A DNA stretch of 41,802 nucleotides from contig QCFH01000013.1 of NCBI GenBank assembly GCA_003278345.1, forward strand, positions 1 to 41,802, given 5' to 3'. The DNA comes from Prochlorococcus sp. AG-363-C02. Its GTDB lineage: Bacteria > Cyanobacteriota > Cyanobacteriia > PCC-6307 > Cyanobiaceae. A program made the translations under genes and the position numbers. The notes beneath the pieces are model-generated. The model worked only from the letters and a program-made list of their open reading frames with translations. It was not told the DNA's origin and did not search any database. Below are positions 7,407 through 17,462 of the stretch, piece by piece. Position 1 is the stretch's first letter; each line of letters begins with the position of its first letter.

Positions 7407-10343
7407 GTGGGTAAATCCAATCAACAATCTTTTTCTTTATCGGATTCTTTCGAGGATGTAATAAGAGTTCGTGGTGCTCGTCAACATAATTTAAAGAATG
7501 TCGATCTGACTATTCCAAGAAATAAATTTATTGTTTTTACTGGAGTTAGTGGGAGTGGAAAGAGTTCTTTAGCGTTTGATACCATTTTTGCTGAGGGACA
7601 AAGAAGATACGTTGAGAGTTTGTCTGCTTATGCTCGTCAGTTTTTAGGTCAGGTAGATAAGCCAGATGTAGATGCAATTGAAGGACTTTCTCCTGCTATT
7701 TCAATTGATCAAAAATCTACAAGTCATAATCCAAGATCAACAGTAGGTACGGTAACTGAGATCAAAGATTATTTGCGATTGCTTTTTGGAAGGGCTGGAG
7801 AGCCACATTGTCCCGAATGCAATAGACCTATTCGGCCTCAAACTATTGATGAGATGGTTGATCAGATAATTACTTTGCCAGAAGGGACTAGATATCAATT
7901 GCTTGCTTCAGTTGTTCGAGGTAAGAAAGGAACTCATGCAAAATTACTTTCAGGTCTTGCATCAGAAGGCTTTGCAAGAGTAAGAATCAATAAAGAAGTT
8001 AGAGATCTTTCAGATAACATTGAACTTGATAAAAATCATACTCATTCTATTGAAGTTGTTGTAGATAGGTTGATAGCAAGAGAAGGCATTCAAGAAAGAT
8101 TAACTGATTCTTTGCAAACTGCTTTAAAGCGAGGAGATGGTTTGGCTATTGTTGAAGTTGTTCCTAAGAAAGGAGAGAAATTACCAGATGGTATAGAGCG
8201 AGAAAGACTTTTTTCTGAGCATTTTGCTTGCCCAGTTCATGGTGCTGTTATTGAAGAATTGTCCCCTAGATTATTTTCTTTTAATAGTCCTTACGGAGCC
8301 TGTCCTGATTGTCATGGTTTAGGACATTTAAAGAAATTTACAGCTGAAAGAGTTATTCCAGAGCCATCTTTACCTGTTTATGCTGCCATTGCACCTTGGA
8401 GTGAGAAAGAGAATGCTTATTATTTTTCTTTATTATTTTCAGTAGGAGAAGCATTTGGATTTGAAATTAAAACTCCATGGAAAGATTTAACACAAAACCA
8501 AAAAGATATTTTACTTAATGGAAGTGAGAAACCTATTTTGATTCAATCTGATAGTCGTTATAAAAAGAAAGATGGCTATAAAAGAACATTTCAAGGTATA
8601 TTACCTATTTTGGAGAGACAATTAAGTGATGCTAATGGTGAATCAGTACGACAAAAATTAGAAAAATTCTTAGAGTTAGTGCCTTGTTCAACTTGTTCTG
8701 GTAAAAGATTAAGACCTGAAGCACTAGCAGTTAAAATAGGCCCTTATTCTATTACAGAATTAACAGAGATTAGTGTTGAAGAAACACTTGCATGTATAGA
8801 GGGTTTAATGGGAATAGCGAATTGTGAGGGTTCTAAACCTTTATTAACTTCAAGGCAAATGCAGATAGGAGAATTAGTTTTAAAAGAAATTCGTTTGCGG
8901 TTGAAATTTCTTCTTGATGTTGGTTTGGATTATTTAAGTTTAGATAGGCCAGCTATGACATTATCTGGTGGAGAAGCACAACGGATTCGTTTGGCTACGC
9001 AAATTGGTGCTGGTCTAACAGGAGTGCTTTATGTTTTAGATGAACCTAGTATTGGTCTTCATCAAAGAGATAACGATAGACTTTTGAATACCTTAGAAAG
9101 ACTGAGAGATTTAGGAAATACTTTAATTGTTGTAGAACATGATGAAGATACAATTCGTGCTGCAGATTATTTAGTTGATATTGGACCAGGTGCAGGAGTT
9201 CATGGAGGAAAAATCATTGCAGAAGGTTCATTAGAAAATTTACTTGAAAGCAAAGATTCATTAACTGGTGAATATCTAAGTGGAAGAAATTCTATTCCTA
9301 CTCCTAAAGATCGACGAAAAGGAGTTAATAGAAATCTTAAATTAATAGGTTGCGATAGAAATAATTTAAAGAATATTTCTGTTGATTTTCCACTTGGTCG
9401 TTTGGTTGCGGTAACAGGAGTTAGTGGGAGTGGAAAAAGTACTTTGGTAAATGAATTATTGCACCCTGCTATAAATCATCAATTAGGTTTAAAAGTTCCT
9501 TTTCCAAAAGGCTTGGAAGAAATGAGAGGAATTAAATCTATAGATAAGGTTATTGTAATTGATCAATCTCCTATAGGTCGTACTCCAAGATCAAATCCTG
9601 CGACTTATACAGGGGCATTTGATCCCATTAGGCAAATTTTTGCTGCTTCGGTTGAGGCAAAGGCTCGAGGCTATCAAGTCGGTCAATTTAGTTTTAATGT
9701 TAAAGGAGGTCGATGTGAGGCTTGTAAAGGTCAAGGAGTAAATGTAATTGAAATGAATTTCTTGCCAGATGTTTATGTTCAATGTGATGTATGTAAAGGA
9801 GCTCGTTTTAATCGAGAAACCTTGCAAGTGAAATACAAAGGACATACGATTTCTGATGTATTGGAGATGACGGTTGAGCAGTCTGTAGAAGTTTTTTCTG
9901 CTATTCCTCAAGCCTCAGATAGATTGAGGACTTTAGTTGATGTTGGTCTTGGATATATAAAGTTAGGACAACCTGCCCCTACTCTTTCTGGTGGAGAGGC
10001 GCAGAGAGTAAAACTTGCAACTGAGCTTTCTCGTCGAGCAACTGGTAAAACCCTTTATTTAATAGATGAGCCTACAACAGGCTTAAGTTTTTCTGATGTT
10101 CATAAATTGATGGATGTACTGCAAAGACTTGTTGATAAGGGAAATTCAATTATTGTTATCGAACATAATTTAGATGTTATTCGTTGCTCTGATTGGATTA
10201 TTGATTTAGGTCCTGAAGGAGGCGATAAAGGAGGTGAGCTTCTTATTGCTGGAACGCCTGAAGAAGTGGCTGCAAATAATGATAGCTATACGGGTCAGTA
10301 TTTGAAAAAAGTTTTGTGCAAACATTCATCTAAAATCAAATGA
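7407..10343 (+). CDS. uvrA: excinuclease ABC subunit A
   Basis: UvrA is the damage-recognition ATPase of nucleotide excision repair. Two ABC modules are complete: Walker A GVSGSGKSS near residues 46-54 with the first signature LSGGEAQRIRLA, and a second GVSGSGKST with LSGGEAQRVKLA. Zinc-binding cysteine clusters are visible: CPECNR, CPDCHGLGH, CSTCSGKRL, and the C-terminal pair CEACKGQG with CDVCKGARF. Length 978 is slightly longer than the E. coli protein (940). The GTG at 7407 gives MGKSNQQSFSLSDSFEDVIRVRGA. A possible hairpin and T-rich tract lies just after the TGA. Confidence 0.97.
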   Translation: MGKSNQQSFSLSDSFEDVIRVRGARQHNLKNVDLTIPRNKFIVFTGVSGSGKSSLAFDTIFAEGQRRYVESLSAYARQFLGQVDKPDVDAIEGLSPAISIDQKSTSHNPRSTVGTVTEIKDYLRLLFGRAGEPHCPECNRPIRPQTIDEMVDQIITLPEGTRYQLLASVVRGKKGTHAKLLSGLASEGFARVRINKEVRDLSDNIELDKNHTHSIEVVVDRLIAREGIQERLTDSLQTALKRGDGLAIVEVVPKKGEKLPDGIERERLFSEHFACPVHGAVIEELSPRLFSFNSPYGACPDCHGLGHLKKFTAERVIPEPSLPVYAAIAPWSEKENAYYFSLLFSVGEAFGFEIKTPWKDLTQNQKDILLNGSEKPILIQSDSRYKKKDGYKRTFQGILPILERQLSDANGESVRQKLEKFLELVPCSTCSGKRLRPEALAVKIGPYSITELTEISVEETLACIEGLMGIANCEGSKPLLTSRQMQIGELVLKEIRLRLKFLLDVGLDYLSLDRPAMTLSGGEAQRIRLATQIGAGLTGVLYVLDEPSIGLHQRDNDRLLNTLERLRDLGNTLIVVEHDEDTIRAADYLVDIGPGAGVHGGKIIAEGSLENLLESKDSLTGEYLSGRNSIPTPKDRRKGVNRNLKLIGCDRNNLKNISVDFPLGRLVAVTGVSGSGKSTLVNELLHPAINHQLGLKVPFPKGLEEMRGIKSIDKVIVIDQSPIGRTPRSNPATYTGAFDPIRQIFAASVEAKARGYQVGQFSFNVKGGRCEACKGQGVNVIEMNFLPDVYVQCDVCKGARFNRETLQVKYKGHTISDVLEMTVEQSVEVFSAIPQASDRLRTLVDVGLGYIKLGQPAPTLSGGEAQRVKLATELSRRATGKTLYLIDEPTTGLSFSDVHKLMDVLQRLVDKGNSIIVIEHNLDVIRCSDWIIDLGPEGGDKGGELLIAGTPEEVAANNDSYTGQYLKKVLCKHSSKIK

Positions 10344-10347
10344 TTTA

Positions 10348-10399
10348 ATATTGAGCTGTTCTTTTTCTTTGCATTTCTCAATATATTTTTATTTTTTTA
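10348..10399 (+). terminator. possible weak terminator after uvrA
   Basis: ATATTGAG (10348-10355) pairs with CTCAATAT (10377-10384) across a 21-nt loop, and a T-rich tract follows (10386-10398). It starts 5 bp after the uvrA TGA. The stem is AU-rich and the loop long, so termination would be weak. The first arm also belongs to a second, competing inverted repeat (GAGCTGTT 10353-10360 with AACAGCTC 10421-10428). Confidence 0.35.
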
Positions 10400-10460
10400 A
10401 ATTAATGAAAATACTTTGATAACAGCTCTTTTGGGAAGATTTCAATATGTACGTTAGGAA

Positions 10461-10528
10461 TATAATGTTGTTTTAATATTTAAAAGTACTAAATCATATT
10501 ATAGATCACCATTATGTTTACTTAGGAG
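10461..10528 (+). promoter_or_regulatory. candidate -10 box and Shine-Dalgarno of sps
   Basis: The uvrA-sps gap (10344-10533) holds a perfect TATAAT at 10461-10466 without a convincing -35, which is common for picocyanobacterial promoters. A second AT-rich TATTAT is near 10497. TAGGAG at 10523-10528 lies 5 nt before the sps ATG and fixes that start. The rest of the gap holds the competing inverted repeats described for the uvrA 3' side. Confidence 0.4.
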
Positions 10529-10533
10529 TTGGT

Positions 10534-11928
10534 ATGGGTTTAAAACTCCTTCATTTGCATTTGCATGGTTTAATAAGATCTAATAATTTGGAATTAGGTC
10601 GAGATTCAGATACTGGTGGACAAACTTTATATGTTTTGGAGCTGGTTAAGCAATTAGCTTCGTCTTCAGAGGTAGAAAAAATAGATCTTGTAACTCGTTT
10701 AATTAAAGATAGAAGGGTTTCTGCTGAATATTCACAAGCTAAAGAAACGATTGTTCCAGGTGCGCAAATAATTAGAATTCCTTTTGGTCCTAATAGATAT
10801 CTTCGTAAAGAATTACTTTGGCCCTATTTGGATCAATTAGCCGAAAGATTGGTGGAAAAACTTAGTCTGGCTAATTCTTTGCCAGATTGGATTCATGCTC
10901 ATTATGCAGATGCTGGCTATGTAGGTGCATTAGTTAGTAATCGTTTAGGTTTGCCTTTTGTTTTTACAGGTCATTCATTAGGTAGAGAAAAAAAGAGAAG
11001 GTTGCTTCAGTTTGGTATGGATCATGATCAGATTGAAAACACTTATTCCATCAGTAGACGAATCGAAGCAGAAGAGTTTGCATTAAAACAAGCAAATTTA
11101 GTGATTACAAGTACCCATCAGGAAGCTGAAGATCAATATGCTAAATATAATAATTTTGTAAGTAAGCAAGCAAAAACTATTTCTCCTGGTGTTGATTTAA
11201 AACGATTTAATATTTTCGCAAAATCCGAGAATATAGCTGCAGTTAATAAGTTGCTTGATCCTTTCCTGAGAGATTCTTCATTGCCTCCATTATTATCTAT
11301 TTCAAGAGCAGTAAAAAGAAAAAATATACCTGCTTTGGTAGAAGCTTTTGGCCGTTCAAAATCTTTAAGAGAATCTCATAATCTTATACTTATTCTTGGT
11401 AATCGTACAGATTTTAGACTTTTAGATAAACAACAGAAAGATGTATTTCAGCAGGTTTTTGAGTTAGTTGATAAATATGATCTTTATGGGAAAGTTGCAT
11501 ATCCAAAAGCTCATCGCAGAGAGCAAATTGCTGATATTTATAGATGGGCTGCTCAATTAAATGGATTGTTTATAAATCCTTCCTTGACAGAGCCTTTTGG
11601 GCTTACATTGCTTGAAGCAGCAGCTTGTGGCTTGCCTATGGTTGCTACTAATGATGGAGGACCAATTGAGATCCTTTCTAAATGTGGAAATGGGGTATTG
11701 GTTGATTCAACAGATCTAGATGATTTACAGAATACTATTGAGAAAGCTGTTGCAAATAATAAATTATGGAAACGATGGAGAAATAATGGAATTGATGGAG
11801 TAAATAACTATTTTAGTTGGAATTCTCATGTAAATAAATATTTATCCTTGATGAAGAATCAATTTGATATGTCTGATTCTAAATCATTAGCTAAAGTAAT
11901 TCCTTTATCTGGAATGAGGGTTAGTTGA
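10534..11928 (+). CDS. sps: sucrose-phosphate synthase, glucosyltransferase-only form
   Basis: This GT4-family, GT-B fold enzyme transfers glucose from a nucleotide sugar to fructose-6-phosphate to make sucrose-6-phosphate, a compatible-solute precursor. SPS-type features are the N-terminal GRDSDTGGQTLYVLELVKQL sugar-binding loop, HAHYADAGYVGA, FTGHSLGREKKR, the SRAVKRKN hinge, and the C-terminal PSLTEPFGLTLLEAAACG motif with the two donor-site glutamates. Length is 464, so the C-terminal phosphatase-like domain of longer cyanobacterial SPS proteins (about 710-720 residues) is absent; sucrose-phosphate phosphatase would have to be encoded elsewhere. A Shine-Dalgarno supports the ATG. The last 70 bp overlap the convergent small gene downstream. 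Confidence 0.85.
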   Translation: MGLKLLHLHLHGLIRSNNLELGRDSDTGGQTLYVLELVKQLASSSEVEKIDLVTRLIKDRRVSAEYSQAKETIVPGAQIIRIPFGPNRYLRKELLWPYLDQLAERLVEKLSLANSLPDWIHAHYADAGYVGALVSNRLGLPFVFTGHSLGREKKRRLLQFGMDHDQIENTYSISRRIEAEEFALKQANLVITSTHQEAEDQYAKYNNFVSKQAKTISPGVDLKRFNIFAKSENIAAVNKLLDPFLRDSSLPPLLSISRAVKRKNIPALVEAFGRSKSLRESHNLILILGNRTDFRLLDKQQKDVFQQVFELVDKYDLYGKVAYPKAHRREQIADIYRWAAQLNGLFINPSLTEPFGLTLLEAAACGLPMVATNDGGPIEILSKCGNGVLVDSTDLDDLQNTIEKAVANNKLWKRWRNNGIDGVNNYFSWNSHVNKYLSLMKNQFDMSDSKSLAKVIPLSGMRVS

Positions 11929-12143
11929 CGGTAAGGAGGTTCTTCATTGATAAATCCCCATTCTTTAAAAATATCAGAATTTTTGTGAGTAATAAATTGC
12001 TCATTTTCCGTTTTATTTAGAACAAAGCCTTCTTTAGCCATTCTTCTCATTAATTTTGCAGATTCTTCGAATCTATATGCCATGGCTTCCAATGATGCAC
12101 AATCTTTAGTTAGACCATCTTCTTTCCATGTGAAGTAATCCAT
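11859..12143 (-). CDS. conserved cyanobacterial small protein (94 aa)
   Basis: A soluble, charged 94-residue protein starting MDYFTWKEDG, with a helical, Met-rich middle (AYRFEESAKLMRRMAKEGF) and a conserved-looking WGFINEEPPYRQLTLIPD block. I recognise the pattern as a conserved hypothetical of marine picocyanobacteria, but know no function. The final ~15 residues after LIPD overlap the convergent sps 3' end by 70 bp and look like a tail acquired by loss of an earlier stop. It starts 8 bp after the mraY fragment on the same strand, so it was probably co-transcribed with mraY. Confidence 0.7.
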   Translation of the reverse strand: MDYFTWKEDGLTKDCASLEAMAYRFEESAKLMRRMAKEGFVLNKTENEQFITHKNSDIFKEWGFINEEPPYRQLTLIPDKGITLANDLESDISN

Positions 12144-12151
12144 AAAATTTG

Positions 12152-12787
12152 TTAGATTCTAGAACGTAGTAATAGTCCAAGGCATACAAATATGATACTT
12201 ATTAACCAGAAACTATGCACTATTTCAATTTCTTTATTTCCTTTTAATTCTAAGTGATGATGTAAAGGAGCCATTCTAAATAATCGATAACCTTTGCCTC
12301 TTCTCTGTTTAGTTATTTTAAATATCCCTACTTGTAAAATTACAGATAAGCTTTCTGCTAGAAAAATTATTCCCATTATAAATAGAGTCCAAAGTGTGTT
12401 TGAAACTAATGCAACTCCAGCTAAACTTGCACCCATTGACAGTGAACCAGTATCTCCCATAAATATTTTTGCAGGACTTTTATTAAACAGAAGAAAGCCT
12501 AACCAAGATCCTGCCATTGACATACAAAAACTTGCAAGAGCATAATTATCTAAGCCTCCTCTTAAAACTAATTCAATTGACATTCCTGTAAAAATAATTG
12601 CACCACATCCCCCGGCCAAGCCATCTAGTCCGTCAGTTAGATTTGTAGCATTACTTTCTGCAATCAATATAAATAATGCTAAAGGCCAAATAAATATACC
12701 TAAATTTAGTAAGTTATTATTCCATAGAGCTATATCAGGCTTTATTAAGCCATTAAAATATATTAAAAATAAGAATATAATTCCCAT
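12152..12787 (-). pseudogene. mraY: 3' fragment of mraY (phospho-N-acetylmuramoyl-pentapeptide transferase)
   Basis: MraY makes lipid I, the first membrane step of peptidoglycan synthesis. The C-terminal two thirds of the family are clear: the AESNATNLTDGLDGLAGG loop (about 44-61) with its catalytic Asp, KIFMGDTGSLSMG, and the triple-His APLHHHLELKG, with about six membrane segments. Full-length MraY is about 360 residues; here only ~212 remain. The N-terminal membrane segments and the DDxxN-type aspartates that bind Mg and undecaprenyl phosphate are missing, so the fragment cannot be an active enzyme alone. Homology appears to begin about at LIQILMGIIF and stops where AroE sequence starts in another frame. 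The ATG at 12787-12785 is just the first Met, not a natural start. Confidence 0.8.
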
Positions 12788-13442
12788 CAAAATTTGAATT
12801 AGGATATAAGCCTAAAGGGGTTGTATTTACGATTAAATCTGATTGTCTAATATACTCACTTAATAAGATATTATTTGTTAAAATTAATTCTATTTTGCTC
12901 GAAAGAAAATTATTTTTATCAATTCCCTTTAAAAATTTATCCAATGAATCTTGACTACGCCCAACAACATAGATATTGGAAAATTTTAATGTACCTAATC
13001 CGTGGAGAACTGCTTTAGCACTACCTCCACATCCAATGATAAGTGCTGTTTTATTTTTGTAGGATGCTTGTTCTTTTAAGGGTACAAGAAAGCCTTCAAC
13101 ATCTGTATTTGAACCAATCCAACTATTTAACTTGTCAGGAATTAATGTATTAACAGCGCCAGTATTCTTTGCTATTGAAGTGATCTGACTGCAGGCATTT
13201 ACAGCAATATTTTTATGTGGAATTGTTATATTCAGACCTTTGCAATTTACTGCTCTTAGACCTTTGATCACTAAATTAAAATCATCTTTTTTGCATGGAA
13301 TTGCTAGATAGCACCAATTTAAGTTTAATTCTGTTAAAGCAGCATTATGAATGATTGGAGATAATGAGTGTCTGACTGGACACCCCAGAACCCCTACGAG
13401 ACTTGTGTCTCCATCTATTAATTCTTTTTTAATACAAACCAT
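12753..13442 (-). pseudogene. aroE: 5' fragment of shikimate dehydrogenase (aroE), C-terminus lost
   Basis: AroE reduces 3-dehydroshikimate with NADPH. The N-terminal domain is intact: HSLSPIIHN (about 25-33), NITIPHK with the catalytic Lys 77, and NTDVEG with Asp about 114. The NADP-binding fold begins with IIGCGGSAKAV (about 136-145) and reaches IVNTTPLG (204-211). After PNSNFDG the sequence no longer resembles AroE and ends 9 codons later in a TAA at 12755-12753. Normal AroE is about 285-300 residues; the missing part holds the conserved C-terminal helix with the QA motif that contacts shikimate. The tail is read out of frame from mraY DNA. The start ATG at 13442-13440 is normal and divergent from dnaK. 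Probably non-functional. Confidence 0.8.
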
Positions 13443-13479
13443 TTGCTTATATTACTTAGTTTACTGTTCGGGAACCACA

Positions 13480-13509
13480 CCTCGCCTCTAAGTGCACTCA
13501 CTGCCGAGG
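13480..13509. repeat. symmetric dyad in the aroE-dnaK divergent gap
   Basis: The central palindrome AGTGCACT (13491-13498) is flanked at exactly equal distances (6 nt each side) by CCTCG (13480-13484) and CGAGG (13505-13509). The 6-nt spacers do not pair. The element lies 38 bp from the aroE start and 40 bp from the dnaK ATG. It could be an operator or a hairpin in the dnaK leader. It is not a CIRCE element (no TTAGCACTC-N9-GAGTGCTAA). Confidence 0.4.
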
Positions 13510-13534
13510 ATGACCCTATTAATAAAGAAATTTC

Positions 13535-15451
<1,917 letters not shown>

Positions 15452-15452
15452 T

Positions 15453-16529
15453 TTAGGTTATTTGTTTTTCGACCCATTCTGCGCAAGCAGGAGCCAATAA
15501 AATGCCATTTCTGTAGTGGCCTGTATTAATTATCAAACCTGGTTCAAGTTTTTCAATTAAAGGAGAGGGTTGATTTTGAGGTCTTGCTCTTAATCCATAC
15601 CATTTCTGTATAATCTGAGCACTTTGTAACCATTGAGGAGCATTGCCATAAAGATTTTGCATCTTCTTTAATTGCTCTTCACTTGGCTTATCTCCAGCTT
15701 CTAATGTTGCACCAACTAACATTTTATTGATTCCACTTGGTATTAGGTTAACTCCATGAATACTTAATACACTGGGCCAATTATCTAAATTGATATTATT
15801 ACCTATATCTACTTCAATTGCTTGCCCGAGAATAGGTTCCATTCCTCGCTCATGCCCTAATGGCTTTATTAGATTTTGACTATTTAATGCGGAACAAATA
15901 ATCACATAATCAGTAATTAAATTATAATTTTCTTCCAAATGTATTTTCCATTTATTTTGATTTGATTGTGATAATCTAGTTAGAGATAATACTGATTTAT
16001 CAACCTTATCTATATTTAAGCTTTCTAATTTAAGCATTAGTGACTTCATTAATATTTTAGGAACAATTCTTCCATCAAATGAAGATATTATCCCTCCATA
16101 TTCATTTTTAGGAAATAGATTTTTAGAGTCTATTTCAAATTTATCATCAAAATATTTTAACCCTGCATGTGCTTTTTCTTTACTAAGTGCTTGTAATTTT
16201 ATTTCTTCTTCTTTAGTACTTGCTAATCTTATTAAAGGATTTTCTAATTTCAATATATTATTTTTTGTAGATAATTCATTTATCAGTTTAGGCCAAAGTT
16301 CAATACATCTTTTTCTTATCTGCCAACTTCTTCCTGATGATCTACTAAAGATATTTCCCATTAGAACGCCAAGAGAAGCATTACTTCCTGATCTAAATCC
16401 ATCAGTATTTTTTTCTTGATTAAGAATAGGATCTATGAGAGTAACTTTGTGTCCTCTTCTTGCAAGATAAAAAGAGGTAGTGCGTCCAATAATGCCTCCT
16501 CCAATTACAGCAATCTCTTTAATGTTCAT
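15453..16529 (-). CDS. FAD-dependent amino-acid oxidase, ThiO/glycine-oxidase-like
   Basis: A 358-residue DAO-fold flavoprotein. The Rossmann FAD-binding motif is GGGIIG (residues 10-15), with DP at the end of the second strand (LIDP). Near the C-terminus WYGLRARPQNQPSP and TGHYRNGILLAPACAE match the pattern typical of ThiO glycine oxidases (GHYRNGILLAP), which make the iminoacetate used for thiazole synthesis. Relatives are also annotated as D-amino-acid dehydrogenases, so the substrate is inferred. The ATG at 16529 is the only reasonable start. It is divergent from purU (84 bp gap) and convergent with dnaK. Confidence 0.7.
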   Translation of the reverse strand: MNIKEIAVIGGGIIGRTTSFYLARRGHKVTLIDPILNQEKNTDGFRSGSNASLGVLMGNIFSRSSGRSWQIRKRCIELWPKLINELSTKNNILKLENPLIRLASTKEEEIKLQALSKEKAHAGLKYFDDKFEIDSKNLFPKNEYGGIISSFDGRIVPKILMKSLMLKLESLNIDKVDKSVLSLTRLSQSNQNKWKIHLEENYNLITDYVIICSALNSQNLIKPLGHERGMEPILGQAIEVDIGNNINLDNWPSVLSIHGVNLIPSGINKMLVGATLEAGDKPSEEQLKKMQNLYGNAPQWLQSAQIIQKWYGLRARPQNQPSPLIEKLEPGLIINTGHYRNGILLAPACAEWVEKQIT

Positions 16530-16613
16530 GTTTTTACTTCCTATTAACTTGCTCTTTAACTGTTGTAATTACTAGATATAAGTAGATAATGACTCAATAT
16601 TGTTTTTTTTGCT

Positions 16614-17462
16614 TTGATCACTGTAATTTTGCAACTTATCTGTCCTGATCGTCCAGGTTTGGTTAGTCTTCTTTCAGGCTGGATAGCAAGTCATAATGGA
16701 AATATTCGACATGCAGATCATCATACAGATGAAGATGCAGCTATGTTTTTGAGTAGACTAGAGTGGGATTTGGAAGGATTTACTCTGAGTAGGGATGAGA
16801 TTTATAAAAAAGTATTTGAATTAGCTAACTCTATAGGAGGTAAGGCACAATTACATTTTTCTGATGAGTTACCAAGAGTTGCAATATTAGCTAGTAAGCA
16901 GAGTCATTGTCTTATAGATTTACTTTGCAGAGTGAATAGTCAAGAGATGAAAATGATAGTTCCTGTTGTTATTTCAAATCATCAAAATTTAAAAGGAGTT
17001 TGTGAACAGTATAATGTTGATTATAGGTATGTACCGGTTGATCAAGTTAATAAATTACATTCAGAAAATAGTATACTTGAGATTCTTAAGGACTATAAAA
17101 TAGATTTAATTGTCTTAGCTAAATATATGCAGATTTTAAGTCCTGATTTTATTAATAAATATCCAAATATAATTAATATTCATCACTCTTTTTTGCCTGC
17201 TTTTAAGGGAGCAAGACCTTATCATCGAGCTTGGAAAAGAGGTGTTAAATTAATTGGTGCAACTGCTCATTACGTTACTGAATCACTTGATGATGGGCCA
17301 ATTATAGATCAGACTATTGTCCATGTTAGTCATCGAGATGAAGTAGATGACTTGATTAGAAAAGGACGTGATACGGAACGTCTTGCCTTGGCTAGAGCTT
17401 TAAGATTCCATTTGCGTAGACAGATAATGGTTTACCAGGGTCGTACGGCGATTTTTGCGTGA
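16614..17462 (+). CDS. purU: formyltetrahydrofolate deformylase
   Basis: PurU hydrolyses 10-formyl-THF to formate and THF, balancing the one-carbon pool. An N-terminal ACT domain (ICPDRPGLVSLLSGWIASHNG) carries the usual RHADHH segment, and the formyl-transferase domain contains NIHHSFLPAFKGARPYH and ATAHYVTESLDDGPIIDQ, which supply the Asn-His-Asp catalytic set. Length 282 is typical. The first usable codon in frame is TTG at 16614, directly after a T8 run. An ATG at 16589 is out of frame by one base and would be in frame if the run were 7 T, giving MTQYCFFALITVILQ; see findings. gcvT, another THF enzyme, lies elsewhere in the window. Confidence 0.93.
   Translation: MITVILQLICPDRPGLVSLLSGWIASHNGNIRHADHHTDEDAAMFLSRLEWDLEGFTLSRDEIYKKVFELANSIGGKAQLHFSDELPRVAILASKQSHCLIDLLCRVNSQEMKMIVPVVISNHQNLKGVCEQYNVDYRYVPVDQVNKLHSENSILEILKDYKIDLIVLAKYMQILSPDFINKYPNIINIHHSFLPAFKGARPYHRAWKRGVKLIGATAHYVTESLDDGPIIDQTIVHVSHRDEVDDLIRKGRDTERLALARALRFHLRRQIMVYQGRTAIFA

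Follow-up and report, generated by a model that had tools for sequence, protein, structure and literature searches.

The genes aroE and mraY of Prochlorococcus sp. AG-363-C02 meet at a junction at which both are truncated, and this junction very likely reflects the technical loss of about 3.5 kb on the way from cell to assembled contig; the feature itself is probably not biological. The junction lies within the stretch of contig QCFH01000013.1 analysed here (41,802 nucleotides, referred to as the window). A deletion-like junction of aroE and mraY with both genes cut short had been proposed in the original prediction, and family profiles together with the comparison with relatives confirm it. 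The features around the junction are the following.

12152..12805, minus strand: mraY (phospho-MurNAc-pentapeptide transferase), 3' part, starting near residue 155 of a reference ORF 370 residues long; TIGR00445 positions 99-316 of 321, 61-69% identity to seven same-genus loci
12753..12791, minus strand: out-of-frame tail of the AroE frame, entering mraY sequence and running to a chance stop; from the translations and from the NCBIfam AroE match, which ends at residue 216
12792..12805, minus strand: junction interval, 14 nt readable either as the retained aroE end or as the retained mraY start (candidate microhomology); from alignments to seven relatives
12792..13442, minus strand: aroE (shikimate dehydrogenase), 5' part, about 217 of about 300 codons; NF001314 positions 2-208 of 290, 53-70% identity to seven same-genus proteins

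Two truncated genes at one junction

Read on the minus strand and aligned to same-genus proteins, the AroE frame is normal for about 217 of its roughly 300 residues, to about position 12792. The AroE ORF (12753-13442) matches the NCBIfam family NF001314 (E 1.7e-78) and aligns to residues 9-215 of the intact 300-residue AroE of G001, the nearest complete genome compared (one contig, 1,751,080 bases). The C-terminal SDH_C domain, by which a functional shikimate dehydrogenase would be recognised, is absent from the window ORF in a Pfam search that detects it in the intact G001 protein. The truncation is therefore real, as had been suggested, but the loss amounts to about 80 residues and not to the 60-70 first estimated.

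The MraY homology begins at about 12805, on the same strand and in a different frame. The MraY ORF (12152-12811) matches TIGR00445 with an E-value of 4e-61, and E-values such as these indicate that neither the AroE nor the MraY match arose by chance. The comparison with G001 aligns residues 155-370 of the 370-residue reference ORF, the start of which was assigned mechanically, whereas by the TIGR00445 family model the loss is about 98 of 321 positions. The N-terminal half of a functional MraY should carry MraY_sig1 and the DD segment. The domain search finds MraY_sig1 in G001 MraY and not in the window ORF, and an alignment of five relatives places the DDW segment, which we take to be the metal site, within the missing part. 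The earlier view that MraY lacks its N-terminal ~150 residues and the DD segment thus holds, the alignment starting at residue 155 of the G001 ORF, past DDW. Adjoining mraY is a conserved 94-residue ORF (11859-12143, minus strand), which has 79% identity in G001 and, at E 0.001, no match to any NCBIfam family.

The two homologies run into each other at the join. In three of the seven relatives, residue 217 (12794-12792) is the last in the AroE alignment, the end ranging from residue 212 to 223 across all seven, and the MraY alignment starts at open-frame residue 3 (12805-12803) in six of the seven and at residue 1 with G001. If AroE ended at residue 217, the overlap would be about 14 nt, and with residue 212, as in two of the seven relatives, it would be zero; given this spread of AroE ends, the actual overlap may be absent or longer than 14 nt. 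The MraY homology had been described as beginning within about 15 bp of the AroE stop in another frame. It is indeed close and in another frame, but the homologies share about 14 nt (12792-12805) instead of abutting. The residue just before the MraY start is K in the five aligned relatives and Y in the window, so that the first mraY-derived base is probably at 12805 or lower. The roughly 14 nt of overlap, a stretch present once in the window, would fit a microhomology join, a suggestion that stays unproven, as the relatives from which parental sharing of the 14 nt was judged are only about 70% identical and too distant for this purpose.

The segment missing relative to other Prochlorococcus genomes

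The break points lie 3487-3693 bases apart (about 3.5-3.7 kb) in all six same-genus genomes in which a single contig carries both genes, the AroE alignment ends varying by up to 11 residues among them. These six (G001-G005 and G008) come from 13 other genomes searched, 14 in the genus search including the organism's own. In each of them the aroE tail, a Ycf60-like gene, rpsF, argG, and the mraY head lie between the break points, meaning that three whole genes (the Ycf60-like gene, rpsF, and argG) are missing from the window, a loss that the original prediction did not notice. aroE was matched in 7 of the 13 other genomes; the remaining six, without an aroE match, are read as incomplete drafts (54-89% complete). 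Sequences like mraY were found in 9 of the 13, with weak matches only in G010 and G012.

In G001, dnaK and aroE are followed by a 152-residue membrane protein and rpsF, then by argG on the opposite strand, and after it by mraY, a conserved short ORF, a glycosyltransferase, and uvrA. AroE, RpsF, ArgG, and MraY are identified by NCBIfam. The names dnaK, uvrA, and glycosyltransferase are our presumptive assignments from the sequence, and the 152-residue protein, which has no NCBIfam match, is presumably Ycf60/Tic20-like. Compared with the block from aroE to mraY in G001 and the five other same-genus genomes, the window shows the same flanks, order, and orientation, without the ~3.5 kb. This collinearity extends over the whole window: among the non-overlapping ORFs with 60 or more residues, 34 in all with the two truncated ones included, 33 have a G001 match, and these follow one another in G001 without interruption, across its origin. 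The aroE-mraY lesion is the sole break in 41.8 kb apart from one difference in gene content relative to G001, namely purU (formyltetrahydrofolate deformylase; 16614-17462, plus strand; TIGR00655, E 4.1e-110). It is the only one of the 34 ORFs without a match in the four G001 stretches compared, and G001 has a 431-residue membrane-protein-like frame at that place.

The search of genome_contigs gives a similar picture at a greater distance. Among the 80 matches listed are six Prochlorococcus loci, four of which span the region in the order aroE, rpsF, argG, mraY (46-49% MraY identity), and two are interrupted by contig ends. The G001 Ycf60-like protein, used as a query, has no match in the four spanning loci. 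The exact 34-nt junction has no match in genome_contigs, from which the window's own record was possibly excluded.

G006 and G009 show one side of the locus only; both drafts break within the tail of rpsF, the gene for S6, where contigs C15 and C13, respectively, end, adjacent to argG. Among relatives the tail varies; it is rich in lysine and glutamate, and in G001 (L010, 4246-4878) the gene ends in tandemly repeated units of this kind. A hard-to-copy spot in the lost segment was considered and rejected: the rpsF tail was folded in relatives and no cause could be derived, and the junction lies elsewhere.

The conserved order also bears on the possibility that the window holds the relic of a real rearrangement, with intact aroE, mraY, rpsF, and argG in the unassembled ~23% of the genome. 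The genome being 77.15% complete, their absence from the assembly is weak evidence and leaves room for such copies. Nevertheless, all these genes would have to have moved or been duplicated despite an order that is conserved in 6 of 6 scorable genomes, and the relics would have to have escaped decay; we regard this as a very slim chance.

Undecayed genes in an incomplete assembly

Of 70 columns invariant across seven intact relatives, the retained AroE keeps 69; of 100 columns invariant across five relatives, the retained MraY keeps 92 (G003 and G009 were missed by the ORF pattern used for the mraY count). When each intact relative is left out and compared with the remaining six for AroE or four for MraY, 70 of 70-76 and 100 of 102-115 columns are kept, respectively. 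Since the retained halves are undecayed, the join should be either very recent or technical, and an old pseudogene is rejected, conserved columns being retained in both halves.

The organism's own assembly comprises 1.42 Mb (1,420,347 bases) in 42 contigs and is 77.15% complete. The original prediction had allowed for other copies of aroE and mraY in the genome, and our search of this assembly found none: each gene gives a single match, both at the junction, and queries with the full G001 AroE and MraY proteins reveal no separate aroE tail or mraY head. Of the genes between the break points, rpsF and argG were sought in the same assembly and neither was found. An empty protein search of this kind proves little, although the argG protein and residues 1-96 of the rpsF protein, run against relatives as a control, do give matches there. 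With about 23% of the genome unassembled, absence alone is weak evidence. Present in the assembly are AroA, AroC, MurG (score 247.1, just under the cut-off of 250.25), ArgH, and four Mur-ligase matches, one of which (on C16) is cut off by a contig end. MurA was not found in the own genome, the PF00275 search returning AroA only.

It is very unlikely that a living Prochlorococcus lineage has lost aroE, rpsF, argG, and mraY at this locus and covers their functions through unassembled copies or in some other way, a case that takes in both the relic reading above and outright loss. Loss of the genes from the lineage altogether, with auxotrophy or an unusual wall as the result, is hardly credible. 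Its sole support is absence from an incomplete assembly, in which MurA is likewise not found, while keeping AroA, AroC, MurG (just under the cut-off), the Mur ligases, and ArgH would make little sense after the loss of AroE, MraY, and ArgG. Moreover, the seven other same-genus genomes with an aroE match all have full-length frames of 301-333 residues.

A real chromosomal deletion in the one sorted cell, arising at a short repeat by slippage or by end joining, would be compatible with several of the same results: the junction could be a microhomology deletion, the undecayed genes would make the event very recent, and copies of aroE, mraY, rpsF, and argG are not seen elsewhere in the assembly. 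The cell would then have been dying or a dead end. Against this reading, the deletion would remove working mraY, aroE, rpsF, and argG together, of which at least two are expected to be essential. Sorting such a cell by chance seems far less likely than a technical join, and we consider this explanation improbable.

Origin of the junction

The original prediction left the choice between a real deletion and a collapsed assembly open. Relative to the other genomes the junction is indeed deletion-like, but there is no sign of a collapsed repeat: a search of positions 9000-17000 for repeats of at least 16 nt found only two pairs, a weak direct one of 34 nt (71%) with its copies 5 kb apart and an imperfect inverted one of 19 nt. 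Neither lies at the junction. We favour a technical loss because no other copies were found, the pathway partners are present, the truncated genes are undecayed, and the assembly resembles that of a single cell. We infer a single-cell source because the assembly is fragmented into 42 contigs and 77.15% complete, as is common for single-cell drafts. Of the six Prochlorococcus loci in the list of 80 genome_contigs matches, five carry AG- names, like the single-cell plates named in the available portion of PMC6122165.

In the organism, the chromosome very probably reads aroE, ycf60-like, rpsF, argG (on the opposite strand), and mraY. Most likely, one of the two sites would have supplied a strand end that re-annealed at the other through a short shared sequence in the course of single-cell whole-genome amplification and was then extended, while the true segment would have failed to amplify. 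Alternatively, the assembler may have joined the two ends across a gap. We hold firmly to a technical deletion and only loosely to any division between amplification chimera and assembler join.

Both possible sources of error have known counterparts. In the sections available of the study by Lasken and Stockwell (2007; PMC1855051), chimeras from multiple displacement amplification (MDA) often join at 2-21 nt of complementarity, the second segment is inverted in 406 of 475 chimeras, a usual and not obligatory form, and same-orientation joins of less than 10 kb account for 11 of 475. As in the chimeras described there, segments of one chromosome less than 10 kb apart are joined in the window and the intervening sequence is lost (3.5-3.7 kb in 6 of 6 scorable genomes), possibly with a short shared sequence at the join. 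The window join is direct, however, with both segments in their original orientation, whereas most chimeras in that account are inverted. By these counts, direct joins of less than 10 kb being only 11 of 475, the window join would be an uncommon type of chimera.

The likeness to misassemblies in single-cell drafts, as far as the portion of PMC6122165 at hand describes them, lies in a single wrong join within a contig that is collinear elsewhere, in an assembly both fragmented and incomplete. For the Prochlorococcus single-cell workflow, this portion gives a mean of 1.5 misassemblies per 100 kbp in three bacterial benchmark cultures, corresponding by simple multiplication to about 0.6 per 42 kb. 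The average may overstate the rate here, because P. marinus single-cell assemblies tended toward the fewest misassemblies according to the excerpted text of PMC5519541. Within a limited library, we found no literature that treats aroE and mraY jointly in Prochlorococcus.

Were the junction real, a free-living cyanobacterium would lack the standard genes for lipid I and the shikimate pathway, which would be astonishing, and the evidence points the other way. The finding is rather a caution for the scoring of gene loss in such drafts, where aroE, mraY, rpsF, and argG would be taken, wrongly, for absent or fused genes.
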